32,380 nt of DNA, taken from positions 1 to 32,380 of the forward strand of contig JACYLR010000136.1 in NCBI GenBank assembly GCA_015272465.1, read 5' to 3'. Positions 2,426-30,412 of this stretch are shown one piece after another. Both the position numbers and the translations under genes were made by a program. The stretch's first letter is position 1. Every line of letters starts with the position of its first letter. Source of the stretch: Gloeomargaritaceae cyanobacterium C42_A2020_066. GTDB taxonomy: Bacteria > Cyanobacteriota > Cyanobacteriia > Gloeomargaritales > Gloeomargaritaceae. The notes below the pieces were generated by a model that was not told the DNA's origin, made no database searches, and worked only from the letters and a program-made list of their open reading frames with translations.

Positions 2426-2632
2426 TTAACCCAATAACGCCGACTTGAGGACAATCCCCACCAACGCAATCGACGCGCTCACCGCCAGGCCGGCCGAAAT
2501 CCCCCCCACCCACTTGATCACATCCCAGGTGCGGTCATTCCACTTTTGGGTCTGGGCCAACTCTTCGGCCAATCGGTCGATCTTGTCTGCCAAATCCCGC
2601 AGAGTCGGTTCCCGCTCTGGTACAGATGCCAT
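2426..2632 (-). CDS. Small one-TM protein with N-terminal coiled-coil-like segment (~68 aa)
   Basis: MASVPEREPTLRDLADKIDRLAEELAQTQKWNDRTWDVIKWVGGISAGLAVSASIALVGIVLKSALLG. The ORF-track start is a TTG at 2638; the ATG at 2632 is preferred. 25 nt upstream of the nuclease ORF, same strand. Confidence 0.6.
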   Translation of the reverse strand: MASVPEREPTLRDLADKIDRLAEELAQTQKWNDRTWDVIKWVGGISAGLAVSASIALVGIVLKSALLG

Positions 2633-2709
2633 ACCCAAATCCCCATGATCAACCCAGCTACAGTCCCCAGCTTAACAAAAGCTGACAACAGGGCCTGATT
2701 CTCTGGCGA

Positions 2710-5313
2710 CTAGGCATTGGCAAACAGCGCCTCCACCTCCTGCTTGGGCAACACTCGGCCCTCATCCTCAAACCCCACCATCTGGTCAAAGCTCAAGTAA
2801 CGGTAGAGATCCTGGGCAAACGGATTGATCTTGTCGGACACAATTTCCCGGTACTCCTCCGGCGTGGGCATCCGTCCCAACAGGGCACAGGCCGCTGCCA
2901 GTTCCGCCGACCCCAGATAAACCCGCGCATCTTTACCCATGCGGTTGTTGAAGTTGCGGGTCGAGGTCGAAAACACCGTCGTGCCATCCGCCACCCGCGC
3001 CTGGTTACCCATGCACAGCGAACAGCCCGGCATTTCCAGGCGTGCCCCCGCCGCCGCAAAAATGCTGTAGTAGCCCTCCTTCCGCAACTGCTCCTCATCC
3101 ATACGAGTGGGGGGCGCAATCCACAGCCGCACCTTGGCCTGACCCGCCACCTCCAGCACCTTGGCCGCCGCCCGGTAGTGGCCGATGTTGGTCATGCAGG
3201 AGCCGATAAATACCTCGTCAATACGGTCACCGGCACATTCCGACAGGGTCTTGATGTTATCCGGGTCATTCGGGGCCGCCACCAACGGCTCGGTAATCTG
3301 GTCAAGATTGACCTCCAGAATGTCCGCGTACTCCGCATCGGGGTCGGCTTGGAGGAGACTGGGATTAGCTAACCAGGCTTCCATCTGCCGAATCCGTCGC
3401 AACAGAGTACGGGCGTCCTGGTAGCCCCGGGCCACCATGTTCTTCATCAAGGCAATGTTGGAGCGCAGGTATTCCGCCACCGTATCGGTGCTGAGGGCAA
3501 TGGTGCAGCCTGAACAGGAACGCTCCGCCGTTGCGTCAGTCAGTTCAAACGCCTGCTCCAATTGCAAGTCTGGCAGGCCCTCCATTTCCATCACCCGGCC
3601 GGCGAACAGGTTCTTTTTGTTCTGCTTGGCCAGGGTGAGGCGGCCATCCTGAAGGGCCACATAGGGAATGGCATTGACAATATCCCGCAGCGTAATGCCC
3701 GGTTGCAGGTGGCCCGTAAACCGCACCAGCACCGACTCCGGCATATCAATGGGCATGACCCCAATCGCCGCCGCAAAGGCCACCAGACCGGAGCCACCGG
3801 GGAAGGAAATGCCCAGGGGAAACCGGGTATGGGAATCCCCGCCGGTGCCCACCGTGTCCGGCAAAAGCATTCGGTTCAGCCAGGAGTGAATGATGCCATC
3901 GCCAGGCCGCAGGGCAACGCCACCCCGACTGGCGAAGAAATCGGGCAAGTCCTGATGCACCTTGATGTCCACCGGCTTGGGATAGGCGGACGTGTGGCAG
4001 AAGCTCTGCATCACCAGATCGGCACTGAAACCCAGGCAGGCTAGTTCCTTGAGTTCATCGCGGGTCATGGGGCCAGTGGTGTCCTGGGAACCCACCGTGG
4101 TGATCACAGGTTCACAGGAGGTACCGGGTCGAACCCCCGTCACACCACAGGCGCGACCGACCATCTTCTGCGCCAGGGTGTAGCCCTTGCCCGTATCCAC
4201 CGGGGCTTGGGGCCGGATAAACCCAGGATGGGGCGGCAACCCCAGGGCTTGGCGGGTCTTGTCCGTCAGGCTGCGGCCAATCAGTAGGGGAATCCGACCA
4301 CCGGCACGCACCTCGTCGAGCAGGGTGTCCGGGCGAAGTTGGAAGGTGCTGATCACCCGGCCGGCCGCATCCCGCACTTCCCCCAGGAATGGATGAACCG
4401 TAATGGCCATGCCGGTTTCCAGGCTCTCGACATTACACTCGATGGGTAGCGCCCCGGCATCTTCGGCGGTGTTGAAGAAGATCGGTGCAAGGGTGCCCCC
4501 CAGGATCACCCCGCCCCGCCGCTTGTTGGGTACGTGGGGAATGTCCGCGCCAATGTGCCAGAGCAGGGAGTTGATTGCTGATTTGCGCGAGGAACCCGTT
4601 CCCACCACATCCCCAACAAAGGCAATCGGCCGGCCGGCCTGTTTCAGGTCTGCCAGGGTTTGCAGGGCACCGGGCATGCGGGTTTCCAACATCACCAGGG
4701 CATGGAGGGGAATGTCCGGGCGGGTGGTGGCGTGCACCGCAGGCGAAAAGTCATCGGTATTGATTTCCCCCGGCACCTTGAACACCGTTAGGGACAATAC
4801 CTCGGGCACGGCCGGCCGCTGCTGGAACCAGAGGGCTTCGGCCCAGGCATCCACAACCCGGCGGGCGCGGGGCAGGGTTTCCGATAGGGCATAGATATCG
4901 TGAAACGCATCGTAGACCAGGGTGGTGGTGGCCAAGGCTGTCGCTGCGGCATCGGCGATCACCGGGTCAGCCACCTGGAGCAAGTCCAGCAGTGCCCCGA
5001 CGTTGTAGCCCCCTACCATCGTTCCCAGCAGCGCCACCGCCTCTAGGGGGGTGATCACGGGCGAGGTGATCTCTCCCTTGGCCACCGTCGCCAGGAAACC
5101 GGCCTTGACGTAGGCAGCTTGGTCAACCCCCGGTGGCACACGCTCACTGAGCAGTTGGCGGTGGGTGGCCGCCGCTTCTGGCGAATCCGGGTGCTGCAAC
5201 GCTTCACAGACCAACGCGGTCTGTTCTGCCGTCAAAGGCAGGGGAGGAATCCCCAACTTGGCTCGCTCGGCAACGTGCTGCCAGTATTGTGCCAGGGTCA
5301 TGGGAACCTCCAT
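2710..5313 (-). CDS. acnB: Bifunctional aconitate hydratase 2 / 2-methylisocitrate dehydratase
   Basis: 867 aa; AcnB-type N-terminal helical domain, swivel domain (GEINTDDFSPA), Fe-S cysteine motifs (GSCMTNIGHYRAA, MPGCSLCMGNQARV). Confidence 0.95.
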   Translation of the reverse strand: MEVPMTLAQYWQHVAERAKLGIPPLPLTAEQTALVCEALQHPDSPEAAATHRQLLSERVPPGVDQAAYVKAGFLATVAKGEITSPVITPLEAVALLGTMVGGYNVGALLDLLQVADPVIADAAATALATTTLVYDAFHDIYALSETLPRARRVVDAWAEALWFQQRPAVPEVLSLTVFKVPGEINTDDFSPAVHATTRPDIPLHALVMLETRMPGALQTLADLKQAGRPIAFVGDVVGTGSSRKSAINSLLWHIGADIPHVPNKRRGGVILGGTLAPIFFNTAEDAGALPIECNVESLETGMAITVHPFLGEVRDAAGRVISTFQLRPDTLLDEVRAGGRIPLLIGRSLTDKTRQALGLPPHPGFIRPQAPVDTGKGYTLAQKMVGRACGVTGVRPGTSCEPVITTVGSQDTTGPMTRDELKELACLGFSADLVMQSFCHTSAYPKPVDIKVHQDLPDFFASRGGVALRPGDGIIHSWLNRMLLPDTVGTGGDSHTRFPLGISFPGGSGLVAFAAAIGVMPIDMPESVLVRFTGHLQPGITLRDIVNAIPYVALQDGRLTLAKQNKKNLFAGRVMEMEGLPDLQLEQAFELTDATAERSCSGCTIALSTDTVAEYLRSNIALMKNMVARGYQDARTLLRRIRQMEAWLANPSLLQADPDAEYADILEVNLDQITEPLVAAPNDPDNIKTLSECAGDRIDEVFIGSCMTNIGHYRAAAKVLEVAGQAKVRLWIAPPTRMDEEQLRKEGYYSIFAAAGARLEMPGCSLCMGNQARVADGTTVFSTSTRNFNNRMGKDARVYLGSAELAAACALLGRMPTPEEYREIVSDKINPFAQDLYRYLSFDQMVGFEDEGRVLPKQEVEALFANA

Positions 5314-5527
5314 ACAAGCGAATTGAGGGGCTGGGAAGAGGGGCGCTGCCCATTCTAAAGAGTCTGTCTAACAGTGTGACGTATCTCACCCCACCCTTTG
5401 CCCGGCCGGCCGTTGCCCATACCCTAGGCGTGGTACATCCTGACCGTTAAAATGCAGAGGTTCGGAGCGTTCTTGGGAAGAGTTTGCAGCTCCAGGAATG
5501 CCGCTTGTTGAGGGTTGGTAAGGCATT

Positions 5528-7744
5528 ATGGTGGCAACCGGGTCTGAGGCAACAATCGGCCGGCCGGCCTTTTGCGAAGGCATTCAGTACTTCAGCGAGT
5601 CTTGGCCCGAGTTTGAGCGCTACGGTCAAGTTCCGATTGTTGACCCCGCCACCGGCACGCTCAGATCCGTGACCGATCCGGCTGCCGCCTACCAAACCCT
5701 ACTCACTGCGGATGCCCTGCGGTACCTGATCCTGCAAATGACCGCCAGCAAAGCCTCCGGCCACCCCGGTGGGTTTGCCAGTTGTGCCGAAGCCTTTGCC
5801 GCTCTCTACCTGTTGGGTCACAAGAATTTCCCCACCGAGGTTGGCCACCACGCCCCTGGCTTCTACAGCGCCCTGTTTTTGGATCGCTCACTGGAGCAGA
5901 TGGGCATCCACACGGTGCAAGATTTACGGAATCGGTTTCGGGAGCGGGAGGGGTTGCTGGGCCATCTATCGGGCTACATCCCCGGCGTCCTCTCCCCGGC
6001 CGGCCCCCTCGGGCAGGGTCAGCACTTCGCCATGGCCGGTGCCCTGCTCAATCCGGATCGGCTGTTTCCTTTTACCGTGGGCGACGGTGGCCTCGGTGAA
6101 CCCTACATCACCAGTGCCTTCCTCCATTTCCATACGGCGTTTCCCCAAGTCACCAACTTCCTGCCGGTGCTGGTCTGGAATGGCTACAGCCAGGAACACC
6201 ACGCCATGTGCTCCACCTGGTCTAACCACCGCATGGTCGAGTATTGGCAGGGGAATGGGTTTGAGGAGATTGTCCTGGTCGATGCCAAAACCTTTGATGA
6301 CCAGGATCAGCCCGAACCCTACGTAGATAGCACCAGCTTCTCCTTCGGTCAACGCTTGGTCTTTGCCCAAGCGGTACTCGCCGGTGTCCAGCAAGCCATT
6401 CAAGCGACCCAGGCAGGCAAGCTAACGGTCTTTATCCTCAAGCAACTCAAGGGGGCGGGGGTTCATGCCCGCGGCTCCAAGTCCCACAATCTCTACGCCC
6501 AGCACACATTGGATAACCCGGATGTGGTAGCAGCCCTTCAGGCCCGTGCCCTTCCTCCTGTGGCCTGGGCATTGGTGCGCGCCAACCTGGAGCGCGCCGG
6601 GGGTGGGCCGGCCGGCCGGATTGCGGTCACCGAGTCAGTACGGCCCTTGCCACCCCTGGGTACCCTCAAACTCCAGGAGTTCCCCCTAGGAGACAAGCAG
6701 GTGTCTACCACTGCCATGGGCGAACTGGTGGTGCAGGTGGGCCAAGCCGACCCCGCCTTCCTGGTGAGTAATGCCGATGGTAACGAAGCCTCCGGGATTG
6801 CCAACATCAACCGCGGCCTGAAGATTATTCACCCCACCCCCGACCCCCTCTATTTTCAGCAACCCCAGGGGCAGGTCTACGAACCCCTCAGTGAAGACGC
6901 CTGTGCGGGGCTGGCGGCCGGCCTGGCGCTGTTGGGGGGGCGGAGTCTGTGGTGCTCCTACGAATCCTTTGCCATTAACGGCCTGCCCATCTGGCAAACG
7001 GTCACCCAGGCGATGGCGGAACTGCGGCGGCCTACCCCCTCTACGGTGTGCCTCTACACCGCCGGTGCCTTGGAGCAGGGGCGCAATGGCTGGACGCACC
7101 AGCGGCCGGAAGTGGAAGCCTACTACGCCGCGTTGATGCGTAACGGCAATGTCTATCCCCTCTTCCCCCCCGATGCCAACGTCACCCAAGCGGCCTACGA
7201 GTGGGCCTTGGGTACGTCCAATAAGGGCATCGCTATTTTCGCCAGCAAGACTCCTCTGCCGATCCGTACCACCCTGGAGCAAGCCCGTCAGGGGGTTCAG
7301 GAGGGCGCGATTGTGATTCAGGAGATGCCTGGCACATCCACCGTAGTCTTCGCCGTGGTTGGGGATATGGTGTTGCTGCCGGTAGTGGAGGCGGCCGGCC
7401 GGCTGGCAGAAGCGGGCATCGGAGTTCGGATCGTCTCGGTGGTCAACCCGCGGCGGTTGTGCCGACCCAGCGATGTGGCCTGGGAAACCTGTGCCGAACC
7501 GGATGGGGAGTTTATGTCCGATGCTCGCTTTGAGGAACTCCTGGGAGGAGATGTGCTAATCGGGGTCACCGGCGGCCCGCTGGCGATGCTGGAACCCCTG
7601 ATGCTGCGTGCCACGGCTCCGCGACGGGACTTCCTGGGCTGGCGGCGCGGGGAAACCACGGCTTCGCCGGGAGAGTTGATGGGCTTCAACGGGTTAACGG
7701 GTGAAAGCCTCAGTCAACGAGCCCTCCTCCTGCTTAAGCCCTGA
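5528..7744 (+). CDS. Transketolase/phosphoketolase-superfamily TPP-dependent enzyme (738 aa)
   Basis: KASGHPGGFASCAEAFAALY, TPP-binding VGDGGLGEPYITSAF, C-terminal transketolase-like domains. Classical phosphoketolase signature blocks are not obvious; it may correspond to the second cyanobacterial phosphoketolase-like family. Confidence 0.7.
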   Translation: MVATGSEATIGRPAFCEGIQYFSESWPEFERYGQVPIVDPATGTLRSVTDPAAAYQTLLTADALRYLILQMTASKASGHPGGFASCAEAFAALYLLGHKNFPTEVGHHAPGFYSALFLDRSLEQMGIHTVQDLRNRFREREGLLGHLSGYIPGVLSPAGPLGQGQHFAMAGALLNPDRLFPFTVGDGGLGEPYITSAFLHFHTAFPQVTNFLPVLVWNGYSQEHHAMCSTWSNHRMVEYWQGNGFEEIVLVDAKTFDDQDQPEPYVDSTSFSFGQRLVFAQAVLAGVQQAIQATQAGKLTVFILKQLKGAGVHARGSKSHNLYAQHTLDNPDVVAALQARALPPVAWALVRANLERAGGGPAGRIAVTESVRPLPPLGTLKLQEFPLGDKQVSTTAMGELVVQVGQADPAFLVSNADGNEASGIANINRGLKIIHPTPDPLYFQQPQGQVYEPLSEDACAGLAAGLALLGGRSLWCSYESFAINGLPIWQTVTQAMAELRRPTPSTVCLYTAGALEQGRNGWTHQRPEVEAYYAALMRNGNVYPLFPPDANVTQAAYEWALGTSNKGIAIFASKTPLPIRTTLEQARQGVQEGAIVIQEMPGTSTVVFAVVGDMVLLPVVEAAGRLAEAGIGVRIVSVVNPRRLCRPSDVAWETCAEPDGEFMSDARFEELLGGDVLIGVTGGPLAMLEPLMLRATAPRRDFLGWRRGETTASPGELMGFNGLTGESLSQRALLLLKP

Positions 7745-7764
7745 TCGCCGTCCTCTGGCACCGT

Positions 7765-8772
7765 TCAGCCGATGGGCAGTGACGTTTGTAGATCAGCCCT
7801 ACTCAGCATCGTCTTGCGCCAACCCTGCACGCGGGCCTGAAGGTGAGACGGCAGCCAGGTGTCGTGGATCGGGTAGAGGGGCAAGCGTGGCTGGAGCACC
7901 CACCCACCGGTCGCGAGGAGTGCTTTCAACTGCCTCACCGCAGGCTGGGGGTAGTCGGGGTTAATCACATCCAGGAGGCCAATGCCCCCCAAGTCACGGG
8001 CACCTGCCTCCAGACAGGCCAATAGCACGTCCGGCCGGCCGATGAGATTAGGGGGGATCTGAATCACCACCTCCGCCGGGAGGAGACGACGCGCCAAGGC
8101 CACCACCTCCGGGAGTTGGTCAACTGGAAAGGGCGGCAGAACCGCCGTCTGGCCGTGGCCCGGTTGGTACGGTTGGAGGATCACCTCCTGGATGTGTCCC
8201 CAGCGGCGATGACTGTGGGCGATGGCGTCCAGCGTATCCACCCAATCCTTGGGGGTTTCCCCAATGCCCAGCAGCAACCCGGTCGTGAAGGGAATCCGCC
8301 AGCGGCCGGCCCAGTCCAGTTGCTGTTGCCGCAGGTCAGGACGCTTACTGGGGGCGTGGCGATGGACGCCGGTCAGGAGGGCGGGGGTCACCTGTTCGAG
8401 CATCAGGCCGAGGGAGACATTGACCTGGCGCAATTGGCCCATTTCTGCCCAGGTGAGGGGGCCAGCGTTGGTGTGGGGAAGCAGATCCTGTTCCAATGCC
8501 AACTGAGCCAACCCGACCAAGCGTTCCATCCAGGCCGGCCGGCCGGGGTGGCGGGGATGCACTTCTCCGCTCAGGATCAGGACTTCACTAATGCCCTGGG
8601 CCGCTAATCCCGCCAGTTGGCGGCCGGCCGTTGCCCCATCGAGACCGGGGTCTTGGCCCAGATCCACGCGAAAGTTGCAGTAGGTGCAGCGGTTAAAACA
8701 GGCGTGGGTCGCCACCAGGGTGTAGCTGGGGCTGTAGGTGACGATCCGATCCCTTTCACTCGCCCCGGCCAT
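7765..8772 (-). CDS. cofG: 7,8-didemethyl-8-hydroxy-5-deazariboflavin synthase subunit CofG (radical SAM)
   Basis: 335 aa; YTLVATHACFNRCTYCNFR radical SAM CX3CX2C; GLMLEQVTP, IGETPKDWVDTL, LQPYQPG typical of CofG. Confidence 0.9.
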   Translation of the reverse strand: MAGASERDRIVTYSPSYTLVATHACFNRCTYCNFRVDLGQDPGLDGATAGRQLAGLAAQGISEVLILSGEVHPRHPGRPAWMERLVGLAQLALEQDLLPHTNAGPLTWAEMGQLRQVNVSLGLMLEQVTPALLTGVHRHAPSKRPDLRQQQLDWAGRWRIPFTTGLLLGIGETPKDWVDTLDAIAHSHRRWGHIQEVILQPYQPGHGQTAVLPPFPVDQLPEVVALARRLLPAEVVIQIPPNLIGRPDVLLACLEAGARDLGGIGLLDVINPDYPQPAVRQLKALLATGGWVLQPRLPLYPIHDTWLPSHLQARVQGWRKTMLSRADLQTSLPIG

Positions 8773-8858: not shown

Positions 8859-9257
8859 CTAATTGCCCCGGTTGAGGGCTACTTCAATTTGATTGAGTTC
8901 CTCGGTAATCCGAGCCTTTAGCTTGTCGGGGAACGGCCGGCCGGGGTAGCTGCTGTAGTGACCCGCAATAGCATTCAGCACCGTCCGCATCGTGGTGTAG
9001 GAGGTGAGTCCCTTCACCGTTGTATCGCGCCGGTACCGGGCTGCGAAGTCGTTGAGTTGGAGCTTGGCTTGGGCCTGGTACTCGCTCTTGGCCGGGTCGG
9101 TTTCCGGCAACTCGATGGCCGTGCGTAGGGTCTCAACCAGGGCCAACGTATCCTGGGCATAGTTGCCCGTCAGGGAGGCGGGTATATTGCTACAGCCGGA
9201 GAGCAGGACAACGCAGGCTAGGACTAGCGCCACCAACCGCAACCCAATTCGCCCCAT
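8859..9257 (-). CDS. psb27: Photosystem II assembly lipoprotein Psb27
   Basis: Start at MGRIGLRLVALVLACVVLLSGCSN (lipobox), followed by LTGNYAQDTLALVETLRTAIELPE...FAARYRRDTTVKGLTSYTTMRTVLNAIAGHYSSYPGRPFPDKLK, a Psb27 pattern. Confidence 0.9.
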   Translation of the reverse strand: MGRIGLRLVALVLACVVLLSGCSNIPASLTGNYAQDTLALVETLRTAIELPETDPAKSEYQAQAKLQLNDFAARYRRDTTVKGLTSYTTMRTVLNAIAGHYSSYPGRPFPDKLKARITEELNQIEVALNRGN

Positions 9258-9316
9258 AGCCCTGCGCTCCTTAATTTTTGTAACCTTTCTTACGATTCTA
9301 CCCCAGGCCGGCCGCC

Positions 9317-9574
9317 ATGCCCCCCACAATTCAGGTCACCGTCAAGTTGTTTGCGATTTACCAAGAAGTCCTCGGCCGGCCGGAACTCACCCTGCACCTG
9401 CCCGTCCAGTCCCCCGTGGCCAATGTTTTGGAATGCCTGATTCAGCAGCACCCGGAACTCGCACCTTGGCAATCCCAGACCCAGTTCGGCATCAACCTGA
9501 CGATAGTGCCCCCCACCACCCCGCTCCAGGATCAGGATGAAGTTGTGTTGATTCCTCCCGTCAGTGGAGGCTGA
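9317..9574 (+). CDS. MoaD/ThiS-family sulfur carrier protein (85 aa)
   Basis: Beta-grasp MoaD-like sequence VKLFAIYQEVLGRPELTLHL..., C-terminal VVLIPPVSGG. Confidence 0.85.
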   Translation: MPPTIQVTVKLFAIYQEVLGRPELTLHLPVQSPVANVLECLIQQHPELAPWQSQTQFGINLTIVPPTTPLQDQDEVVLIPPVSGG

Positions 9575-9671: not shown

Positions 9672-10973
9672 ATGGTTCTGGCTACCGCACCCACAACCTC
9701 GCCCCGCGCCGCCTTCACCCATCTGCGGTGCAAAGAATGCGGTGCCGAGTACGAACCCAAGGCTACCCACGTCTGCGAACTGTGTTTCGGCCCACTGGAA
9801 GTGGCCTACGACTACGCCGCCATCCGCGAGCGGGTCAGCCGGGACAGTATTCGTCAAGGCCCCCATTCCATCTGGCGCTACAAGGACTTCCTGCCTGTAA
9901 CCACCGCCACCCCGATCGATCTGGGTACGGGCCTGACTCCTCTGATTCGAGCTGAGCGCCTCGGTCGGCGTCTGGGCCTGAAGAACCTCTACCTCAAGAA
10001 TGATGCGGTGAACATGCCCACCCTTAGTTTTAAGGATCGGGTCGTTTCCGTAGCCCTCACCCGCGCCCAAGAACTGGGTTTCACCACGGTGGGCTGTGCC
10101 AGTACCGGCAACCTAGCCAACTCTACAGCCGCCATTGCAGCCCACGCAGGGTTGGAGTGCTGCGTGTTTATCCCCGCGGACTTGGAGGCAGGTAAGGTTC
10201 TGGGTACGCTGATCTACCGGCCGACGGTGATGGCGGTCAAGGGCAACTACGACCAGGTGAACCGTCTCTGTTCTGAGGTAGCCAACACCCACGGCTGGGG
10301 CTTCGTCAATATCAACCTGCGGCCCTACTACTCGGAAGGCTCGAAAACCCTGGGCTACGAAGTCGTCGAGCAACTGGGCTGGCGACTGCCCGACCATATT
10401 GTGGCACCCCTGGCCTCCGGATCTTTGTTTACCAAGATTCACAAGGGCTTCCGGGAGTTTGTCGAAGTGGGCCTTGTGGAAGACCGGCCCGTGCGCTGTA
10501 GCGGTGCCCAGGCCCAGGGATGTAGCCCGATTGCCCAAGCTTTTGCTGAGCATCGAGACTTTGTCACCCCCGTCAAGCCCAACACCATTGCCAAGTCCAT
10601 TGCCATCGGTAATCCAGCCGATGGGGTCTATGCTCTGGATCAGGCGCGCAAAACCGGCGGTTCCATCGACATGGCCACGGACGCGGAGATCGTGGCGGGC
10701 ATCCAGCTTCTAGCAGAGACGGAGGGTATCTTCACGGAAACCGCTGGTGGCACCACCATTGCCGTGTTGCAGAAACTGGCGGCGGCCGGCCGCATTGACC
10801 CTGAGGAAGTCACCGTAGCCTACATTACCGGTAACGGCCTCAAAACCCAGGAAGCTGTCCAAGGCTACGTCGGTGAACCTTTTACCATCGAACCCCAACT
10901 CGACAGTTTTGCCCGCGCCCTAGAGCGTTCCCACACCCTGGAGCGCCTGGAATGGCAAACCATCCCTGTCTAA
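9672..10973 (+). CDS. thrC: Threonine synthase
   Basis: 433 aa; N-terminal zinc-ribbon-like CKECGAEYEPKATHVCELC, PLP-lysine motif PTLSFKDRVV, GCASTGNLANSTAA. Confidence 0.95.
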   Translation: MVLATAPTTSPRAAFTHLRCKECGAEYEPKATHVCELCFGPLEVAYDYAAIRERVSRDSIRQGPHSIWRYKDFLPVTTATPIDLGTGLTPLIRAERLGRRLGLKNLYLKNDAVNMPTLSFKDRVVSVALTRAQELGFTTVGCASTGNLANSTAAIAAHAGLECCVFIPADLEAGKVLGTLIYRPTVMAVKGNYDQVNRLCSEVANTHGWGFVNINLRPYYSEGSKTLGYEVVEQLGWRLPDHIVAPLASGSLFTKIHKGFREFVEVGLVEDRPVRCSGAQAQGCSPIAQAFAEHRDFVTPVKPNTIAKSIAIGNPADGVYALDQARKTGGSIDMATDAEIVAGIQLLAETEGIFTETAGGTTIAVLQKLAAAGRIDPEEVTVAYITGNGLKTQEAVQGYVGEPFTIEPQLDSFARALERSHTLERLEWQTIPV

Positions 10974-11299: not shown

Positions 11300-11300
11300 G

Positions 11301-11901: not shown

Positions 11902-13101
11902 CTACTTGGTCGGCGGTTCCTGCCAGCGCTTATCCAGCTTCGTCCGGCCATCGGGCATGATCGCCCCGGCCATATTAGCTCCAGTTAAGTTGGCGCGGTT
12001 GAGCTTGGCTCCCTTGAGGTTAGCCTCTGTTAAATCGGCGTACCAGAGGTTTGCATTCGTCAAATCCGCGCCTTGCAGATTAGCCCGCTTGAGGTTGGTG
12101 CGGCTGAGGTTGGCGTCGGTTAGCGTGGCTTCACTGAGATCTGCCCAGGTAAGATCGGCTTTATTGAGGATGGCCTGGGAGAGATTGGCTTTGCGGAGGT
12201 TAGCTCGGACGAGGATGGCCTGACTCAGATCGGCATCAACTAAGGTGGCCTCTTGCAGCGCCGCACGGGTCAGGTCAGCCCCAGTCAAGGTGGCACGGGT
12301 CAGATTGGCTTGCTTCAAGTTGGCGCTGATCGGCACCGACGTTCCCACTAATGCACTGACCGTCTGGCCACCAATCTTGATCACACCTAGGCTGGCTTGA
12401 CTCAGGTCGGCTTCTGTGAGGTTGGCCAAAGTCAGGTTGGCGCCGGCCAGATTGGCCTCCCGCAACACGGCTCCCACTAGGCTGACTTCCCGCAACACCG
12501 CCCGGCTCAGGTCAGCACCCTGGAAATTGACCTCGTCCAGGATGGCACCAATCAAAGAAACCTGGATCAGTTTGACCCCAATAAAGTCCCGCTCCCCCCT
12601 GGCATAGCGAGTGAGGAAATCCTGGGCTGGGGTCTCAAGGGCTACACCCACTTCATCACTGGTGACAAGGGGGGGAGGTGAAGGTGCCCGCCGGCCGGCC
12701 GTCACTTCTGGATCAGGGACGTTTTCCCAGGGTGAGGCTGGGGGCGGTGCAGCTACGGTGCGCGTGGGTTGGGACTGCCAGGCAGGACTCAGGTCACCCG
12801 TGGGCGGGCCTTCCAGTCCAAAGGCTTCCATCCAATCCGGAAACAGTTCCTCTGCGCGACGGGCATAGACCTTAGCTGTGGCCACGCCCGGAATCTCAAG
12901 GCGAGCCAATCCCTGACGAATGAGGTTTAACGAAGCTCGTCGATCCGGTACGTGGGGTGCTTCGAGCAGCACTTCTAGGCAATTGTGCCGAAACACCACC
13001 CGCGCCGTGACTCCCTGGCTGGCGAGAGCCTGGTTCATCAGAAGTGCAATCGCCTCCGGGTCGCCCTGCTTGGCCCTTTGGAGGATGGAGGGGGAGTTCA
13101 T
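11902..13101 (-). CDS. Pentapeptide-repeat protein
   Basis: Extended A(D/N)LXX repeats (NFQGADLSRAVLREVSLVGAVLREANLAGANLTLANLTEADLSQA...). Likely start MNSPSILQRAKQGDPEAI (ORF track extends to 13143). Confidence 0.92.
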   Translation of the reverse strand: MNSPSILQRAKQGDPEAIALLMNQALASQGVTARVVFRHNCLEVLLEAPHVPDRRASLNLIRQGLARLEIPGVATAKVYARRAEELFPDWMEAFGLEGPPTGDLSPAWQSQPTRTVAAPPPASPWENVPDPEVTAGRRAPSPPPLVTSDEVGVALETPAQDFLTRYARGERDFIGVKLIQVSLIGAILDEVNFQGADLSRAVLREVSLVGAVLREANLAGANLTLANLTEADLSQASLGVIKIGGQTVSALVGTSVPISANLKQANLTRATLTGADLTRAALQEATLVDADLSQAILVRANLRKANLSQAILNKADLTWADLSEATLTDANLSRTNLKRANLQGADLTNANLWYADLTEANLKGAKLNRANLTGANMAGAIMPDGRTKLDKRWQEPPTK

Positions 13102-13249: not shown

Positions 13250-16200
13250 TCAGTTTACCGTGCTATCGCGAGGAGTTGGATGCTCCAAAAACCGGGTTGT
13301 GGCTAGGTGATCCCAGACCTGATCAGGCGGCAAAGGCCGGCAGAACAGGTAACCTTGGCCATAGGGACAGCCCAAGGCTTGCAGCTCAGCCAATTGCTCC
13401 GCGGTTTCGACCCCCTCAGCGACCACATCGAGTCCCAAACTCTCCCCTAGGGTGAGAATAGAGCGCACAATCTCTTTAGTACCCCCATCCGTATTGAGCC
13501 GCCGAGTAAATGAACGGTCAATCTTGAGGGCATCAATCGGCAGGTTGTGAAGCAATGCTAGGGAAGAGTAGCCGGTGCCAAAGTCATCGACATTCAACTG
13601 CACCTGGAGTTGGCGCAAGCGTTCGAGGGCTTGGCCCACCTGCTCGATGTTGGTCATCATCGTGTGTTCAGTAATTTCCAGCCGCAGGCTCTGGGGGGGC
13701 AGCCCACTGGTGGCCAGAATCATCTGAATGCGATCGACCAGATCTGGTTGGGTCAGTTGCTGGGCTGAAAGATTCACACTCACCGTCAGGAGTGATTGGC
13801 TCACCCATTGCCGCTGCCAGCGCGCCACTTGGTCGGCGGCAGCTTCTAAAACCCACCAGCCCAGGGGTACGATCAGGCCCGTTTCCTCGGCGAGGGGGAT
13901 GAACTCTCCGGGAGACACGAGGCCCCGTTCGGGATGCTGCCAACGCACCAGCGCCTCAAACCCCACAACCCGCTCTTGGCCCAGCGCCACAATCGGCTGG
14001 TAGTAGACACACAACTCGTGGCGGTCGATGGCTCGGCGCAGGTCATTTTCCAATTGCATGGCAGCGAGGGCCTCCACATGCATTTGGGGGGTGAAAAGTA
14101 CGTAGCGATTGCGGCCACTGCCTTTGGCCTGATACATGGCGATATCGGCATCCCGCAACATCTCCTCTGCTGTCTGGTAGTCGGAGTGGCTAAGGACGAC
14201 GCCGATACTACAAGCGGGTGTGACGGTGTGGCCACTGAGTTGCACAGGGGTACTCAGGGTGGTTTGGAGACGCTCTAGCAAACTATTGAGCAGGGTGGGA
14301 CTCTCCAAATCCTCCAAGATCAGGACAAATTCATCGCCGCCGAGGCGGGCAATGGTGTCGGTTTCCCGGAGAACACTTGTCAGGCGCTGGGCGAGAATCA
14401 CCAGCAGGTCATCCCCCGCCCGGTGCCCCAGGCTGTCATTGATCACTTTGAACCGATCTAGGTCAAGGAAAAGGACGGCAAAAGGCCGTTCAGGAAAACG
14501 CCGGAAGCGACTCATAGCCTGGGTGAGGCGATCCATGAAAAGGACGCGGTTGGGCAGGCTCGTGAGGGCGTCGTGGAGGGCTTCATGGAGGAGTTGGGCT
14601 TCGGCTCGCTTGCGTTCGCTGATGTCCCGCCCAATGGCCTGGTACTCCAGCGGCTGTTGTTTCTCGTTAAAGACGGCCCGTACCGTCCATTCGTACCAGC
14701 GGCCGGCCGTGGTTTGGCATTCTAGGGTGCCCACGGGGGTGCCGGGGGTCAGTTCGGTGAGATGTTGCCCAAAGCGAGTTTGGTCTTCAGGGAGAAAAGG
14801 ATGCTGAAAGACTTCATCCAGCAAGGCATCCACCGGCCGGCCGGCGTAGCGGGCAAAGGCTTGGTTGACAAAGGTGAGGGTGCCATTGGAGCGGCAGCGG
14901 TAGATTAACTCGGTTTGGTCTTCGACCACCATACGGAAGCGCTGTTTCTCCTGCCGCAGAGAGGCCACCAGTTCAGCTTGGGTGACGGCTAGGCCCACTT
15001 GTCCGGCAATTTGTTGCAGCACATCCACTTCTTCGGGAATCCAGGGCCGCGGGCCTTGGCAGTGCTGGGCCAGCAGCAGACCCCACAACTCTGGGCCTGC
15101 CAGGATCGGCACCACCAAGTTGGCCCGAATGTCGAACTGGCGCAGCATGTCCAGGTAGCAGGGTTGGAGGTTGGCCGCTAGCACATCACCCAAGACGGAG
15201 ACCCGGCCGTGGCGGTAGAGGCTGATGCACTGCTCGGTGAAACAGGGGTCTTCAAGAGTTCTCGTGAGGATTGGGGCACCCTGGGGGCCGATGGCCTCAA
15301 CAATAAACTCTCCAGACCAGTTGGGGAGAAAGCGGTAAACCAACACCCGGTCGCACTGGAACAGGGATTGCACCTCATCCACCGTGGTTTGGAGGATAGC
15401 TTCCAGTTCGAGGGACTCGCGAATCTTGAGGACGATGCTCGCCCAGGCTTCATTCCAACGCTGTTGCCGCAGCCGGGTCAATTCGGCGAGTTTACTTTCG
15501 GTGATGTCGCGGGTAATGCCCACTGACCCCAACACCACCCCCTGGGCATCCCGCTGCACTTTGCCAAGGACTTGTTGCCAGCGCAGGCTGCCATCCTCCA
15601 TGACGACCCGCCCCTCCCATTCGTAATAGGCTTGATTGACATCTTGAGCAGTTTGCATGAGCAGGGCATCCAGGGCTGGCCGGTCGTCGGGGTGCACAGG
15701 ACGGATAAAGTCCTCGAGGCTGACTTGGAAACTGGTGCCCGGGGGACGAGTCCGGTAGCGAGAACGCGGCAGGTGGGAAATCACGGTGACCATCTGGCTG
15801 GGCCAATCCAACTCCCACACGGATAGGCCCGCGCTTTCCATCGCCAGTTGCAGACGAGCTTCACTGTTGCGCAGGGCCTGGAACGCAGTTTGGCGGTCAG
15901 TGATGTCGAATAGAACACCATCTAAGTAAAGGCAGGTGCCATCGGGTGCAAAGACCCCCTGCCCCTGTTCGCTCACCCAGCCAATCCGCCCGTCGGCCCG
16001 CACCACCCGGTACTCTAGGGCATAGATTTTCCGCTCGTGAGTGGCTGCGAGGGTGTCGGCGATTACCCAGTCCCGGTCATCGGGGTGGATTAGGCTGTCC
16101 CAACTGGGGGCACGTTCGTTGAGCAGGGCCTGGGCAGAATAGCCACTCACCGCTTCGATGGGGCCACTGACAAAGACCATCATCCAGGGGGGTGTGGCCT

Positions 16201-17932: not shown

Positions 17933-18075
17933 GTCACCCCCTGTGGCCGGCCGGGGGGCAGAGCGTGGCCAGACTGGACAAGATTGTCAGGCAGACCGCA
18001 TCGGCACACGGGTCAAGACTATGCTAAGAGTGAAGCGAAACGCCTATCCCTAGGCCCACAGAGCTTTCCTTCAGT

Positions 18076-18918: not shown

Positions 18919-18979
18919 AGGCCGGCCGAACGCGAGGATGATGGGACTGACATCTTCGCCCAGTTTACTGGTACCCGTT

Positions 18980-20047
18980 ATGCAGGTTGTGCTCTGCGGC
19001 TATTACGGCTACGGAAATGCAGGGGATGAGGCGCTGCTGGCCACCCTCCTGGAGATGTTGCCCGATCACTGCACACCTGTGATTCTCTCCGCCGATCCCG
19101 TCGCGACCGAGCGCACCTACGGCGTCGCAGCCTGCCCCAACCGCCAACCCGGCCCGCTCCTAGCCACTCTGCGCGCTAGCCAAGCCTTTATCTGGGGGGG
19201 TGGCAGCCTGATTCAAGACGCCACCAGTGCCTTCAGTCCTCTGTACTACCTGGGGCTGATGACCCTCGCCCAACAATTGGGGTTGACGACCCTCGCCTGG
19301 GCACAGGGGATCGGGCCACTGCGGCGACCGTGGGTGCAGCGTTTGGCGCGCCCTGTGTTTCGGGGATGTACCGCTGTCAGTGTGCGGGATGGTGGCTCCG
19401 CCAGTCTCCTCCAAGCCTGGGGAGTCCCCCATCAGCTTGCGCCCGACCCGGTATGGGCGATGGCCGGCCGGCCGATGACCTCGCCAGTCCCTTCCCAGTC
19501 ACGCATTGCCGTTGTCCTGCGCCCCCATGCCTGGTTGACTCCGGCCTGGATTGCGACCCTGACCGAGGCCCTAGCCCAATTGCAGCGAGCAACCGGTGCC
19601 CATCTCTGGTTGATACCCTTTCAGCCCAGCACCGACACCGCCCTCGCCCAGGCCCTCCACGCAGCCCTGCCCCACAACAGCCAAGTGCTGATCGAGACGG
19701 ATGTTCACCGCTTGCGGGGGCTGTTTGATCACGTCAACCTAGTCCTAGGAATGCGCTACCACAGCCTCGTCATGGGGGCTGCGGCCGGCCGGCCCTGTAT
19801 TGGCCTCAGCTACGACCCGAAGGTGAGCCGCTTGGTGCAAGAGTGCGGCCTACTCGGCTGGTTCTTAGCCGATTCCCCTCCGCCTGCCCAAGACCTGGCA
19901 GCCGCCTGGGTACAATACTATGCAAGCCCACCCAGCCAAACCACCTACCAGGACTGGGTTGCCCGTGCCCTCAGCCATCAGCAACTCTTGCACCACACCC
20001 TGGGAGGCCCTGGCCATGACTCGCCCGCCATCCACCCCCACGGATGA
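18980..20047 (+). CDS. csaB: Polysaccharide pyruvyl transferase CsaB
   Basis: MQVVLCGYYGYGNAGDEALLATLLEML, FIWGGGSLIQDATSAFSPLYY, GMRYHSLVMGAAAGRPCIGLSYDPKV. ATG at 18980 preferred over the ORF-track start at 18896. Confidence 0.92.
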   Translation: MQVVLCGYYGYGNAGDEALLATLLEMLPDHCTPVILSADPVATERTYGVAACPNRQPGPLLATLRASQAFIWGGGSLIQDATSAFSPLYYLGLMTLAQQLGLTTLAWAQGIGPLRRPWVQRLARPVFRGCTAVSVRDGGSASLLQAWGVPHQLAPDPVWAMAGRPMTSPVPSQSRIAVVLRPHAWLTPAWIATLTEALAQLQRATGAHLWLIPFQPSTDTALAQALHAALPHNSQVLIETDVHRLRGLFDHVNLVLGMRYHSLVMGAAAGRPCIGLSYDPKVSRLVQECGLLGWFLADSPPPAQDLAAAWVQYYASPPSQTTYQDWVARALSHQQLLHHTLGGPGHDSPAIHPHG

Positions 20048-20381
20048 CCCCCTACCCCGGCTCAAGTTGTTTTTCTATTTGGTGCCGGTTTTTGGGCTAT
20101 TGCCAGCGCTCTGGGGTCTCTACCGCCGGCCGGCCGCTAGCCGCGACGAACGCCAAGTCTGGCGAACTGTAGTTGCGCTGGGTATCCTCTGGCTGCTGGG
20201 ACAAACCCTGCTGAATGGGGCCAGCAGCGGGGGAGAAGTGGCCCCCGTCAGCCTACAACTGATCAGCAGTCTCCTGACATCTGGCTATTTTGCGGCGCAT
20301 ATCTGGCTGATGGTGCAACTGTGGCAGCGGCGCCCCGTCCGTCTTCCTGGATTGCAGGCTCTTGTGAGACGCTTGCCCTGA
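20016..20381 (+). CDS. Small cyanobacterial membrane protein, function unknown
   Basis: MTRPPSTPTDDPLPRLKLFFYLVPVFGLLPALWGLYRRPAASRDERQVWRTVVALGILWLLGQTLL...; 3-4 TM segments; overlaps the csaB 3' end. Confidence 0.7.
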   Translation: MTRPPSTPTDDPLPRLKLFFYLVPVFGLLPALWGLYRRPAASRDERQVWRTVVALGILWLLGQTLLNGASSGGEVAPVSLQLISSLLTSGYFAAHIWLMVQLWQRRPVRLPGLQALVRRLP

Positions 20382-20441: not shown

Positions 20442-21842
20442 GTGTCCGCCACGACCCCCCGCTACCATCGGCCCCGAAGCCGCCCTGTCCCGCCTCGCGC
20501 CCGGCGGCGGCCGACACGACTCTGGTTCCTCCTGTTCATGGCAGTTGGTTTTGGGTCAGCGGTGGCCGGGGCGAGTCTCGCCCTGTTGTTCGGAAGTCCC
20601 ACCCTCCAGCAAGCCGAACTATCCCCCGAGGAAACACGCCTTGTAGGGGGGGATCGGATCGTCACTGGGGGCTACTTTGGCCTGCCCCGCCTCACCCAGC
20701 CTGTCAACATCATGGTGATGGGCATCAAGATGCTGGCCCTAGACGAACAGGAAGGCTTTCAAAAACGGGTCAATACCTTCGACGGATTGGCCGATACGAT
20801 CCTGATCGCCCGGTTTGAGCCGGACACTCGCCAAGTACGCGCCCTGTCGATTCCCCGCGATACCCGCGTCAACATTCCTGGTCACGGCTGGAGCAAGATC
20901 AACGCCACCAATGTCTGGGGTGGCCCGGCCTTGACAGCGCACACCCTGGATATGTTGCTGGGTGGGGTCGAGGTGGATCGCTACGTGCGGGTTAACCCGA
21001 TGGCCGTTGAGGCCCTCGTGGATGCGCTGGGGGGGATTACCCTAACGGTTCCTGAGGACATGCGGTATCAGGACGATAGCCAGCACCTCTACATCAACCT
21101 CAAGGCCGGCCGGCAGCGATTGAACGGCAAGCAGGCGATGGCCTTCCTCCTGTTCCGCTACGACCGGCTGGGGGATATCGGCCGGATTCAACGACAGCAA
21201 CTGTTCATGCGCGCCTTCCGGGAGGAAGTCCTGACACCCGCCACGCTGGCTAGATTGCCCCAACTGTTGAGTGCGATCCAGACGTACGTCGATACCAATC
21301 TGACGGTCGAGGAGATTGTGGCCCTAGCCGGGCTGGTCAAGGAGGTTCAGAGTGACAGTTTTCAGATGACTCTGCTGCCAGGTCAATTTAGCGGTCAAGA
21401 GTACAGTGCCAGCTATTGGCTCCCGGACGAGACACGGGTGCAAACAGTGGCGGCCCAGTTTTTCCAGGCCCGGCCGGCCGCCGCCCTCAGTGAGGGTGAG
21501 GGGGAAACTCCACCGTCCCTAGCCCAACTGCGAATTGCCATCCAGGACAGCACCGACAACCCAGAGGCCGTAGCTGCCGTCACCGATCACTTACTGGGGG
21601 CGGGTTATCGCCGCATCTACGAGGATGTGCCCTGGAAGGTTACCCTCCGCCAAACCCAGATCATTGCCCAGCAGGGTAACCTCGCCGCCGCCCAACAATT
21701 GCAGGGAATTCTCGGCTTTGGGGCAGTGCGAGTGGAAAGTACTGGGGAACTCTACTCCGACCTTACTATCCAGGTGGGTCAAGATTGGAAGTATGGCCTC
21801 AAGGCCGTCACCAGCTCGGCTCAAACAGGCGAGCGGCCATAG
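20442..21842 (+). CDS. LytR-CpsA-Psr (LCP) family protein with LytR_C-like C-terminus
   Basis: NIMVMGIKML...DTILIARFEPDTRQVRALSIPRDTRVNIPGHGWSKINATNVWGGP...VDALGGITLTVPEDMRY..., RLNGKQAMAFLLFRYDRLGDIGRIQRQQ. Confidence 0.93.
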   Translation: MSATTPRYHRPRSRPVPPRARRRPTRLWFLLFMAVGFGSAVAGASLALLFGSPTLQQAELSPEETRLVGGDRIVTGGYFGLPRLTQPVNIMVMGIKMLALDEQEGFQKRVNTFDGLADTILIARFEPDTRQVRALSIPRDTRVNIPGHGWSKINATNVWGGPALTAHTLDMLLGGVEVDRYVRVNPMAVEALVDALGGITLTVPEDMRYQDDSQHLYINLKAGRQRLNGKQAMAFLLFRYDRLGDIGRIQRQQLFMRAFREEVLTPATLARLPQLLSAIQTYVDTNLTVEEIVALAGLVKEVQSDSFQMTLLPGQFSGQEYSASYWLPDETRVQTVAAQFFQARPAAALSEGEGETPPSLAQLRIAIQDSTDNPEAVAAVTDHLLGAGYRRIYEDVPWKVTLRQTQIIAQQGNLAAAQQLQGILGFGAVRVESTGELYSDLTIQVGQDWKYGLKAVTSSAQTGERP

Positions 21843-22426
21843 AAAGGCAGTGCCTCTGTCCAGGCCGGCCGCTTACCCTGCTGCCACTCTAGGGCAGCCC
21901 ACTGCCACAGCTCGGTCACGGGAGCCTCATCTAGAGTTGCAGCGACAGTGAGACTCTTGGGCCAAGTCAATAGGGCAGTCTGCCACTCACCCGCGGTAAA
22001 GACCCGATCCGGGCAAAGAGCCTGCGGGCCAAAGGCCGTACCAACATAGACACCGCCATAGACCTGATTCGGGCCGGCCGGAAGGGTGACGGCGATGGGT
22101 GTCGGGGTAGAACGGCCGGCCGCCCAGGCCAGACAACCCAGGCTGGACAGCGACCAGAGGGGTAGCGTCAGACTCTGGGCCAGCGTGCGAGCCGTGATTA
22201 CGCCCAGGCGAGTACTGGTGAAACTGCCCGGCCCACAGGCGACGGCGACATAGACGAGATCTGTCCACTTCAGAGGTGCAAGAAAAGCCTCCAGCGTGGT
22301 GTGGAGATGACTGGCGATCTGTCGCCCCTGGGGCCAAGTTTGAACACGCAGGTCATCAGGGGCACAGCCAACCGCTAACCCCAGGGTTGAACCACTGGTG
22401 TACAGGGCTAAACCATAGGCCGTCAT
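21821..22426 (-). CDS. tsaB: tRNA threonylcarbamoyladenosine biosynthesis protein TsaB
   Basis: MTAYGLALYTSGSTLGLAV...AVACGPGSFTSTRLGVITARTLAQSLTLPLWSLSSL. ATG at 22426 overlaps the ycf34 stop by 1 nt. Confidence 0.88.
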   Translation of the reverse strand: MTAYGLALYTSGSTLGLAVGCAPDDLRVQTWPQGRQIASHLHTTLEAFLAPLKWTDLVYVAVACGPGSFTSTRLGVITARTLAQSLTLPLWSLSSLGCLAWAAGRSTPTPIAVTLPAGPNQVYGGVYVGTAFGPQALCPDRVFTAGEWQTALLTWPKSLTVAATLDEAPVTELWQWAALEWQQGKRPAWTEALPFYGRSPV

Positions 22427-23527: not shown

Positions 23528-23543
23528 CTAGTTAAGTATTGGA

Positions 23544-24697: not shown

Positions 24698-25027
24698 GGC
24701 TCCCATTCTCAATGAGAAGACCGGCCGGCCGGGTGGTAGGCGTGTCCCTATGCCGACCCTGCTCCTGTTGCCTACCAGGAGTGGAGAGCATGCAATTGGG
24801 GCGTCTTCTTCAGTTGGTGGGTTTCCATAAACGAGGTCGTGGGCCAAGTTACGGGCGCTGGCGCTAAAGGCAGGGCGGGCAATGGCGAGCTGCCACTGGT
24901 CAAACAGGGATGCACCCTCAGTCTCAATGATCTTGTAGGCCTTGCAGGGTAGCGGGGCGCAAATCGGGTTGCGTGTCGGGCACTTCTGTAGATGTGAGCA
25001 TAGCTTTGCCCCCCCATTGCACCGCGG
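24698..25027 (-). pseudogene. Possible coding remnant without a clear start codon
   Basis: Manual translation of a minus frame open between stops at 25028-25030 and 24695-24697 gives ...CSHLQKCPTRNPICAPLPCKAYKIIETEGASLFDQWQLAIARPAFSASARNLAHDLVYGNPPTEEDAPIACSPL... This looks more protein-like than the 81-aa track ORF overlapping it. Confidence 0.25.
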
Positions 25028-25216
25028 TCATGGATGATAGGCTCCGGGTTCAGCCCTCAGGATTGGCGATGGGTTTTGGGTCTCACAGCAGGGCCTTCCT
25101 GAGTAGGCTTACCTACCCCGATCCTATCGATTCGGCCGGCCGCTGATTCTAGAGATAGCCTTAAACCCTGGGGCCACTCCCTCAAGCTCCACCCAACTCA
25201 CCCAGGACATCACGCA

Positions 25217-26268
25217 CTAGTCCTCTGGGGAGAGCGGCTCATCCAACTGGGCTATCTCCTGATGCAGGCGGCGGCGGGACAGGCGTCGATACTTTTCTGC
25301 GGTCAGGCGAGGTTCAGCTCGCAGCCGGCCGGCCGGGCCACTTTTGTATTTCACGCCTGCATCACGGCCGGCCGAATTTGCCGTGTGGGCCTCCTGGGCT
25401 AAGCATTCCTGAAGCCAAGTGCAGTAGTGGGCATAGCGTTCCCAATCCCCTCGCACCTGACACCCTGGTTCCCGGTGATGCTGGCAATTGCGAAACTCAC
25501 AGGTTCCGTAACGTAACCGCTGTCGAATTTCAGGAAAGGCATCCCCCAACCCGCGTGCTGACATCCGCAGCAGGGGCTGATTAAACCCTGGCGTATCCAC
25601 CAGAAACCCCCCGGCCGGCAGCGGCAATAAGGAAACATGGCGAGTCGTATGGCATCCCCGACCCGAGCGGGCCGAAACCGCCCCCACACCCCGGCCGGCC
25701 GTAGGCACTAGAGCATTGATCAGACTCGACTTCCCCACCCCCGATGGCCCGCAAAGTACTGCCGTTTCCCCCACTAGGGCAGCTCGGAGAGGTTCCAAAC
25801 CCAGAGACATTGGGGTACTCACCAAAAAGGGTTGGTACCCCCACTGGGCTAGACGCGTTTCCCACGCCGCCGCTATCGTTGATTCCACCAGATCCACCTT
25901 GGTGAGGGCCACCTGAACCCCCAACCCCATCGCCTCAGCATGCACCAAAAACCGGCTGAGTAGCATCGCTTCTAGGGGCGGTTCCGCTAGCGAGACCACC
26001 ACCACCAGGCAGGTTGCATTAGCCACGGGTGGATGGGCCATCTCCGACTGGCGCGCCGCAATACCTGCAATCACGCCGCGTCCCGTCCCCAGATCCGCCT
26101 CCCCCAACCAGACCCGATCCCCCACCATCACCCGCCGGCCTGTCTTCAAAAGCCGCGCCCGCCCGGTACATAACAGGGGCGTTTGATCGACCGCCCCGTG
26201 CGCCAGATAGACCTCGTAAAAATTTGCCTGGGCCGCCACCACCGTGCCCATCGGCGCGGCCGGCCGGG

Positions 26269-26272
<4 letters not shown>
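25217..26272 (-). CDS. rsgA: Ribosome small subunit-dependent GTPase A
   Basis: Circularly permuted GTPase: TKVDLVE (G4), GPSGVGKSSLINAL (G1), VDTPGF (G3); C-terminal zinc-binding CEFRNCQHHREPGC. Apparent TTG start overlapping the tusA stop. Confidence 0.95.
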
Positions 26273-27662
<1,390 letters not shown>

Positions 27663-29543: not shown

Positions 29544-29680
29544 GACGAACCGATGTCTAGTCGGACTCCGTACCCTGCCACATCCGAGTCAGGGATTCTC
29601 TCCCAGTGTTCCACAACTTCTGGGAAATGTGATCAACAGGCTGCAACTTTCTCAGGGATTCTACGGAAAGTCGGGAAGGA

Positions 29681-30412
29681 CTAGGTCTCAATGACGGGCT
29701 CTGTTGACAACACAGGGCCGGCCGGCCGGTCTTCTGCGTCATTGACTCCATCTGTTTCGGGTGGGCCAGCCACCTTGACCATGGCGTGGCGGAGCACCCG
29801 CTCCTCCATCAGATATCCCCTCCGCAACTCCTCCAACACTGTGCCTTCAGGGTGTTCCCTAGAAGGTTCACGGAGGACTGCTTCGTGATAGTTCGGGTCA
29901 AAGGGCTGTCCCTTGGCATTGATGGGAGCCACCCCCAGCTTCTTCAGAGACTCGACCAGTTGTTTATAAATGCCCTGGTAACTCTTGTGAATACTAATCT
30001 CCTGGTCTGTCTGGGGCTTCAGGAGGGCGCGGGCCCGCTCAAAATCGTCAACTACAGGTAGTAGGCGCTCAATCACATTGCCAACGGCGCGCCGTTCCAC
30101 CTCCTCTTGCTCCCGCTGACTACGTTTCCGGTAGTTATCGAAATCCGCAGCCAAGCGAAGGTAGAGACTCTTCTGCTCCTCCAATTGGTTCCGTAGGGTT
30201 GTCAATTCTTGCTGGAGTGCAATCGCCTGGGTGAGATCAGTCGCTGAGGGTGGTGTTGCCGTTTCCACCGCAGCCGGCTCCTCAGGGTCAATAGGCAACT
30301 CGATCTCACCAAAGGTTGGAGCGGGGTTCCCTTGGTCAGATTCGGTACAAGTCGCGATCGTTTCTGTCTCGGCTTGATCCTTGAGTTGTTCCTCGCGTTC
30401 AGAATCCCCCAT
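29681..30412 (-). CDS. grpE: Nucleotide exchange factor GrpE
   Basis: [87 protein letters not shown]. Confidence 0.96.

Follow-up and report, generated by a model that had tools for sequence, protein, structure and literature searches.

The reason why cyanobacteria have thousands of highly iterated palindrome (HIP) sites has been an open question since 1995. In most cyanobacteria the palindrome is HIP1 (GCGATCGC), which occurs genome-wide at about 2 per kb in coding and noncoding DNA, with deviations at its outer positions. Here a palindrome sharing all of these features is described, the octamer GGCCGGCC within a 10-bp unit, CGGCCGGCCG, found in 32,380 nt of DNA from Gloeomargaritaceae cyanobacterium C42_A2020_066 (contig JACYLR010000136.1; the whole of this stretch is referred to as the window). 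Both palindromes also occur inside a clustered regularly interspaced short palindromic repeat (CRISPR): GGCCGGCC in the array of the window, and HIP1-like bases in CRISPR1 of Synechocystis, each repeat of which has seven of the eight HIP1 bases (PMC6604393). Unlike HIP1, the present palindrome has no GATC core and no A or T (100 % GC), is a 10-bp unit and shows strict exclusion of copies less than 30 bp apart.

The best clue to the purpose of HIPs comes from the rare genomes in which another palindrome and a matching methyltransferase replace HIP1. Elhai (2015) described the alternate HIPs GGGATCCC, TCGATCGA, GGCGCC, rCCGGy and GCsGC, and found no HIP genome without a methyltransferase capable of acting on its own HIP (PMC4390886). 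The mechanism proposed in that paper is a ratchet in which the methylated site directs mismatch repair. The present case is similar in that HIP1 is low or absent, a GC-rich palindrome reaches 1,000–2,000 per Mb and a possibly fitting methyltransferase is present. It differs in that the sequence is outside that list, in that the family has HIP1 at background, in a candidate enzyme (here MT19) from a clade of D12-like partners of NotI-family endonucleases, and in a density of 2,043 per Mb, above the 1,160–1,345 per Mb of GGGATCCC. M.CbeI and DmtB, alpha-class D12-like enzymes with FxGxG and DPPY motifs, methylate GGm4CC, where m4C is N4-methylcytosine (PMC3425538); MT19 shares these motifs, as compared by motif rather than by sequence, but plain GGCC, the target of DmtB, M.Ssp6803II and M.CbeI, is not the enriched unit here. 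The palindrome is a further independent case from the Gloeomargarita family with a sequence not previously listed. With HIP1 at background levels and no other dominant palindrome in the two relatives sampled, cause and effect are easier to separate.

Over-representation, specificity and anatomy of the palindrome

The source assembly (2.73 Mb in 246 contigs, GC content 0.597, completeness 98.7 %) is the sole representative of its genus among the Gloeomargaritaceae compared, and its family relatives are distant (aconitase identity 77 %). Searches of this genome covered contigs of at least 3 kb. Palindrome ranking and Markov statistics were obtained from a 510 kb sample of it (L005–L024 and L137–L156) with the CRISPR part left out. 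The order-3 Markov model already accounts for GGCC and CCGG tetramer abundance, and the masked background is a model trained with the palindrome tracts masked. The comparison set comprised seven family relatives and 31 other cyanobacteria for GGCCGGCC, and 389 other cyanobacteria for the decamer CGGCCGGCCG. The full palindrome ranking was done in two family relatives (G003 and G004), and named octamers were counted in the others.

It was found that the window contains 61 exact copies of GGCCGGCC, compared with 2.3±1.4 in dinucleotide shuffles (maximum 6, n=100). Seven are inside CRISPR repeats and 54 copies (46 loci) are elsewhere, from 2488 to 29727, which reproduces exactly the count of the original prediction, made from the sequence by eye. 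The same prediction held that HIP1 was absent, and there are indeed 0 copies of GCGATCGC in the window. It also described the copies as spread over unrelated genes and gaps, consistent with the equal densities measured: the 6.3 kb of noncoding DNA has 11 copies and the coding DNA, about 25.6 kb, has 43.

The genome as a whole has 5,579 copies (2.04/kb). The window density of about 1.7/kb is near this value, so the window is not special but typical of its own genome, and the drop in density outside the window that had been named as a possible objection is not seen. A second objection, that tetramer abundance explains the count, likewise fails: 1,100 copies were observed in the 510 kb sample against 129 expected at order 3, and against 32 (order 3) or 11 (order 5) with the masked background. 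Unmasked order-5 and order-6 models absorb the excess because they train on the motif itself. When all 256 palindromic octamers were ranked, as had been proposed, GGCCGGCC came first, and the second-ranked octamer, CCGGCCGG, is an overlap product of it. The iteration of GGCCGGCC is confirmed as real and genome-wide, and its interpretation as a highly iterated palindrome is supported; the further idea that it stands in place of HIP1 should be read with caution given the background levels of HIP1 across the family.

Among the seven family relatives GGCCGGCC occurs 2–79 times, and among the 31 other cyanobacteria at most 274 times. The decamer has 3,623 copies in this genome, compared with at most 113 in any of the 389 others. 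HIP1 is at background, with 40 copies here and 7–52 in the family, as against 13,152 and 9,746 in two HIP1 genomes. No dominant palindrome was found in the octamer rankings of G003 and G004. As G003 has equal GC content (0.600) and no GGCCGGCC enrichment, base composition is no explanation. The background level of HIP1 family-wide, together with the lack of another dominant palindrome in the two sampled relatives, suggests that a lineage without a HIP acquired one, and not that HIP1 was exchanged for another palindrome. Identity with Yellowstone Synechococcus was rejected: GGGATCCC, which types A and B of Synechococcus OS have as their HIP, is found at background counts of 31 here and 3–15 in the family, and the family is Gloeomargaritaceae. 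No GGCCGGCC HIP was found in the open-licence literature, and GGCCGGCC is an alternate HIP of the kind known from Elhai (2015) but a new sequence variant.

Two smaller signals were observed in the relatives. In G004 (Gloeomargaritales VI4D9; L157–L176), counts of TTGCTATA/TATAGCAA and of the hexamer CTATAG exceed the order-3 expectation by up to 10-fold, unlike in the source genome. In the G. lithophora-like G002, much of the little GCGATCGC present sits in two short islands (G002:C1:841936–864548 and 141465–143989), a pattern expected had these copies arrived on DNA from a cyanobacterium that has HIP1.

The sequence iterated is properly the 10-bp palindrome CGGCCGGCCG, formed by two overlapping CGGCCG, with 683 copies in the 510 kb sample against 1.6 expected. 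The length distribution of GGCC-period tracts is bimodal, dipping to a minimum at 8 and peaking at 10, and tracts longer than 14 are rare. One-base variants at the four central positions are near background (0–6 copies each, 0.6–2.7 expected each), and those at the two ends have 51–77 copies each; HIP1 in the control genome G009 has the same end-weighted pattern. Octamers without both outer C/G number 15 (by subtraction), compared with about 59 expected under independent ends, and the rarity of these double-end deviants implies that at least one CGGCCG is needed. The genome therefore shows the properties of the HIP class, namely genome-wide over-representation, low HIP1, a GC-rich unit in the density range given above and variants at outer positions, with CGGCCGGCCG as its unit and not the GCGATCGC of HIP1 proper.

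The spacing of copies was also unusual. With overlapping copies merged into 909 loci, there were 0 pairs 9–30 bp apart against about 32 expected and 16 against 29 at 30–50 bp, and spacings of 100–400 bp were in excess. Seven control hexamers in the same genome displayed no such exclusion, and the exclusion of HIP1 copies in G009 was weak, with 14 pairs at 9–20 bp where 27 would be expected. The exclusion may reflect selection against G/C hairpins or slippage-prone direct repeats, or the footprint of a bound protein.

The cost to proteins was estimated by protein alignment to relatives, which covered 179 sites in 29,188 codons (2.04 per kb) in all three frames (44, 50 and 85). Residue identity at the sites was 0.523, compared with 0.667±0.019 for matched residues of the same genes. 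When matching was restricted to a distance of 20 codons, the values were 0.526 and 0.631±0.014, and control G/C-only octamers showed no drop (0.662 vs 0.648). The two drops together suggest that the sites lie at positions of slightly lower conservation and are linked to additional replacements on top of this. Foreign-looking genes are without the palindrome and copies are confined to native-looking DNA, with zero in c2c8, tupA and a low-GC restriction-modification (R-M) segment of contig C67 (GC 0.46, 2.8 kb). There are also zero copies in dnaK, plausibly due to protein constraint.

Methyltransferases and the candidate enzyme MT19

The original prediction called for a search for solitary methyltransferases recognising GGCC, CCGG or CGGCCG. 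A solitary candidate was found, but it is a D12-like enzyme of the NotI-partner clade rather than a GGCC 5-methylcytosine enzyme; C5 methyltransferases (PF00145; M.HaeIII type, GGCC) gave 0 candidates in the contigs of at least 3 kb. Dnd phosphorothioation of GGCC was rejected, as no DndC (TIGR03183) match was present in these contigs.

The beta-class N4/N6 methyltransferases (PF01555) number two, on contigs C67 and C85. The C67 enzyme is CcrM-like (adenine) and overlaps a MutH/Sau3AI-family endonuclease (L232 2578–4109) in the low-GC segment. This pair was rejected as the 'MutH analogue' of Elhai because close homologues of the endonuclease (83–94 % identity, in three unrelated cyanobacteria) occur in genomes with at most 4 decamers each, and because the low-GC segment is without palindrome copies. 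The C85 enzyme (MT85, L047 1261–2187) is of the SPPY m4C type. It was rejected as the cognate enzyme because its homologues adjoin ThaI-family (CGCG) endonucleases, which are neighbours in 29 of 83 loci of this family, including two Gloeomargarita relatives.

Several observations concern these other systems. The ThaI-type methyltransferase (C85; also L045, L046 and L069) has lost its endonuclease here, but G001 and Gloeomargarita VI4D9 retain theirs; avoidance of CGCG is strong in G004 (0.13) and weak in the source genome (0.70). In L112 (3973–4833), L105 (4127–4987) and 21 other loci from Bacteroidota and other phyla, a family of about 286 amino acids with no Pfam or NCBIfam match is encoded upstream of this methyltransferase, where the ThaI endonuclease would otherwise be, and is probably an undescribed endonuclease family. 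The 510 kb sample also shows extreme avoidance of GGWCC (observed/expected 0.05), GGGCCC (0.04) and CAGCTG (0.06), as well as of GAGCTC, AGGCCT, GTCGAC and CTGCAG, despite the lack of any C5 methyltransferase candidate in the contigs searched.

The D12-class enzymes comprise a Dam-like one on contig C223 and a divergent one, MT19, on contig C19 (1984–2958). MT19 is intact, with 324 amino acids and the motifs FVGGG and DPPY. Its genome-like GC content (0.599) and the single palindrome copy inside the gene suggest that it is long resident. It is flanked by pilT-like and epimerase genes with no adjacent endonuclease and is therefore solitary. No counterpart was present among the D12-model matches listed in five Gloeomargarita relatives.

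The identity of MT19 is 45–53 % to NotI-linked methylases and under 29 % to other D12 enzymes. Relatives on Aeromonas, Thermus and Variovorax plasmids directly adjoin NotI-family endonucleases (PF12183, E down to 2e-80), as do 11 of the 14 homologues on viral contigs, and in the tree MT19 groups with the NotI-linked methylases (support 98/98), apart from the other D12 enzymes tested. Sequence comparison thus places MT19 in the NotI-partner D12-like clade. Unlike the R-M systems with whose partner methylases it clusters, MT19 has no NotI-family endonuclease beside it, and none was found in the approximately 20 % of the genome searched. NotI cuts GCGGCCGC, which contains CGGCCG, and EagI, a member of the NotI family, cuts CGGCCG itself. 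MT19 may therefore be the enzyme for the palindrome, a candidacy that draws on the targets of its partner enzymes. MutS is present in the genome but likewise in relatives, and is thus necessary at most.

Probable gain and maintenance of the palindrome

We consider it probable, with moderate confidence, that CGGCCGGCCG is an alternate HIP gained by one Gloeomargaritaceae genus and kept through the solitary methyltransferase MT19 modifying the site. MT19 would modify all or part of the palindrome (CGGCCG or GGCCGGCC), probably at cytosine N4; the methylated site would feed back on repair or recombination, as in the methylation-directed mismatch-repair ratchet of Elhai, so that near-sites would be drawn to the full palindrome and interior mutations removed. 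Recognition by MT19, methylation of the palindrome and methylation-driven accumulation are steps that we infer. The palindrome and MT19 both occur here and neither was detected in the relatives searched, which fits the association of HIPs with methyltransferases reported by Elhai. A longer history can be sketched more tentatively, as something a little short of an even chance: the methyltransferase of a NotI-type R-M system may have turned solitary, after which a HIP was gained de novo in a lineage with background HIP1, the genome was rewritten with about 5,600 sites and its proteins changed, and the methylated sites would now be spaced marks for repair or chromosome organisation.

Several points weigh against the role of MT19. 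The NotI site GCGGCCGC, with 23 copies in 510 kb, differs from the HIP, and the putative target is drawn from the partner enzymes. D12-like enzymes are mostly adenine methylases and the palindrome has no A or T, although the existence of DPPY D12-like enzymes of m4C type means that an 'adenine methylase' annotation does not exclude a G/C-only target. A plain CGGCCG methylase alone does not predict the 10-mer, because CGGCCG shows no enrichment on its own: of its 1,791 occurrences, 214 are outside the octamer. There is no C-to-T excess at the palindrome, which is neutral if the mark is m4C. As the searches were on contigs of at least 3 kb, a further methyltransferase could hide on smaller contigs or a plasmid. 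The cognate enzyme could then be an unassembled or plasmid-borne GGCC, CCGG or FseI-type methyltransferase, for which the completeness of the assembly and uncertain plasmid binning leave room; such a substitute is improbable, as the genome does have MT19, in intact form and from a clade that fits.

An explanation that needs no methylation, or only incidental methylation, is that selection acts on the palindrome as a site of protein binding or recombination, for nucleoid organisation, Chi-like repair or uptake, with a bound dimer giving the strict interior and the exclusion zone. The empty 9–30 bp range, the excess at 100–400 bp, the unaffected control hexamers and the equal coding and noncoding density are consistent with this, and copies override protein conservation as expected for a selected DNA site. 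However, relatives live without the palindrome, selection alone would have difficulty producing a new 10-bp specificity at thousands of places, hairpins or slippage between close G/C palindromes could be enough to give the exclusion, and HIP1 exclusion in G009 is weak. To our knowledge no protein is known to bind the palindrome, and we regard this explanation as unlikely, though worth keeping in view. Mutational accumulation without modification, by slippage or biased gene conversion of a (GGCC)n tetranucleotide, would account for the motif period of 4 and for 14-mers following 10-mers in 7.5 % of cases, compared with an overall next-four-base frequency of about 1 %. It is already disfavoured by the tract-length distribution, which is bimodal rather than a geometric microsatellite decay, and with few tracts over 14 and none in same-GC relatives its probability is very low. 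Copy number climbs with local GC (Spearman 0.65, 2-kb windows), as a composition effect through GGCC/CCGG abundance, codon usage or a protein motif would predict, but the excess over order-3 and masked expectations, the use of all three frames, the equal noncoding density and the lack of enrichment in G003 refute it, leaving it next to no probability.

The favoured reading, maintenance by MT19, yields one candidate gene and a simple prediction, that MT19 protects EagI or FseI sites. The spacing exclusion below 30 bp and the protein-conservation cost are two measurements that any HIP theory must explain.

Positions in the window and neighbouring genes

Table 1. Copies of GGCCGGCC in the window, by position and location
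Position	Copies of GGCCGGCC	Location
29..480	seven, one per repeat (GTTTCAGTCCCTCAAGAGGGATTCTGGGGCCGGCCGC), at 29, 104, 180, 252, 322, 399, 473	CRISPR array part, 7 repeats
2488..2495	one	noncoding
4359..4366	one	acnB
4628..4639	two overlapping	acnB
4810..4817	one	acnB
5404..5411	one	noncoding
5558..5569	two overlapping	phosphoketolase/transketolase-like gene
5998..6005	one	phosphoketolase/transketolase-like gene
6606..6617	two overlapping	phosphoketolase/transketolase-like gene
6916..6923	one	phosphoketolase/transketolase-like gene
7393..7400	one	phosphoketolase/transketolase-like gene
8033..8040	one	cofG
8304..8311	one	cofG
8533..8544	two overlapping	cofG
8622..8629	one	cofG
8935..8942	one	noncoding
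9306..9313	one	noncoding
9374..9381	one	noncoding
10784..10791	one	thrC
12693..12700	one	pentapeptide-repeat gene
14701..14708	one	PAS-GGDEF-EAL gene
14835..14842	one	PAS-GGDEF-EAL gene
16378..16385	one	PAS-GGDEF-EAL gene
16419..16426	one	PAS-GGDEF-EAL gene
17332..17339	one	PAS-GGDEF-EAL gene
17382..17389	one	PAS-GGDEF-EAL gene
17605..17612	one	PAS-GGDEF-EAL gene
17798..17805	one	PAS-GGDEF-EAL gene
17945..17952	one	noncoding
18808..18819	two overlapping	noncoding
18920..18927	one	csaB
19462..19473	two overlapping	csaB
19783..19794	two overlapping	csaB
20128..20135	one	noncoding
21104..21111	one	LCP-family gene
21472..21479	one	LCP-family gene
21863..21870	one	tsaB/tsaD-like gene
22072..22079	one	tsaB/tsaD-like gene
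22114..22121	one	tsaB/tsaD-like gene
24723..24730	one	noncoding
25134..25141	one	noncoding
25327..25334	one	rsgA
25366..25373	one	rsgA
25693..25700	one	rsgA
26258..26265	one	rsgA
27386..27393	one	dnaJ
29716..29727	two overlapping	grpE

The CRISPR array (1–500) adjoins a C2c8-like type V effector gene at 565–2400 on the reverse strand (NF038192, 332 bits, cut-off 350), and three of its spacers had no match among viral contigs. Two genes of low GC content (0.515 and 0.473), one of them encoding a TupA-like ATP-grasp protein, lie at 22895–24614; they have zero palindrome copies and were probably acquired.

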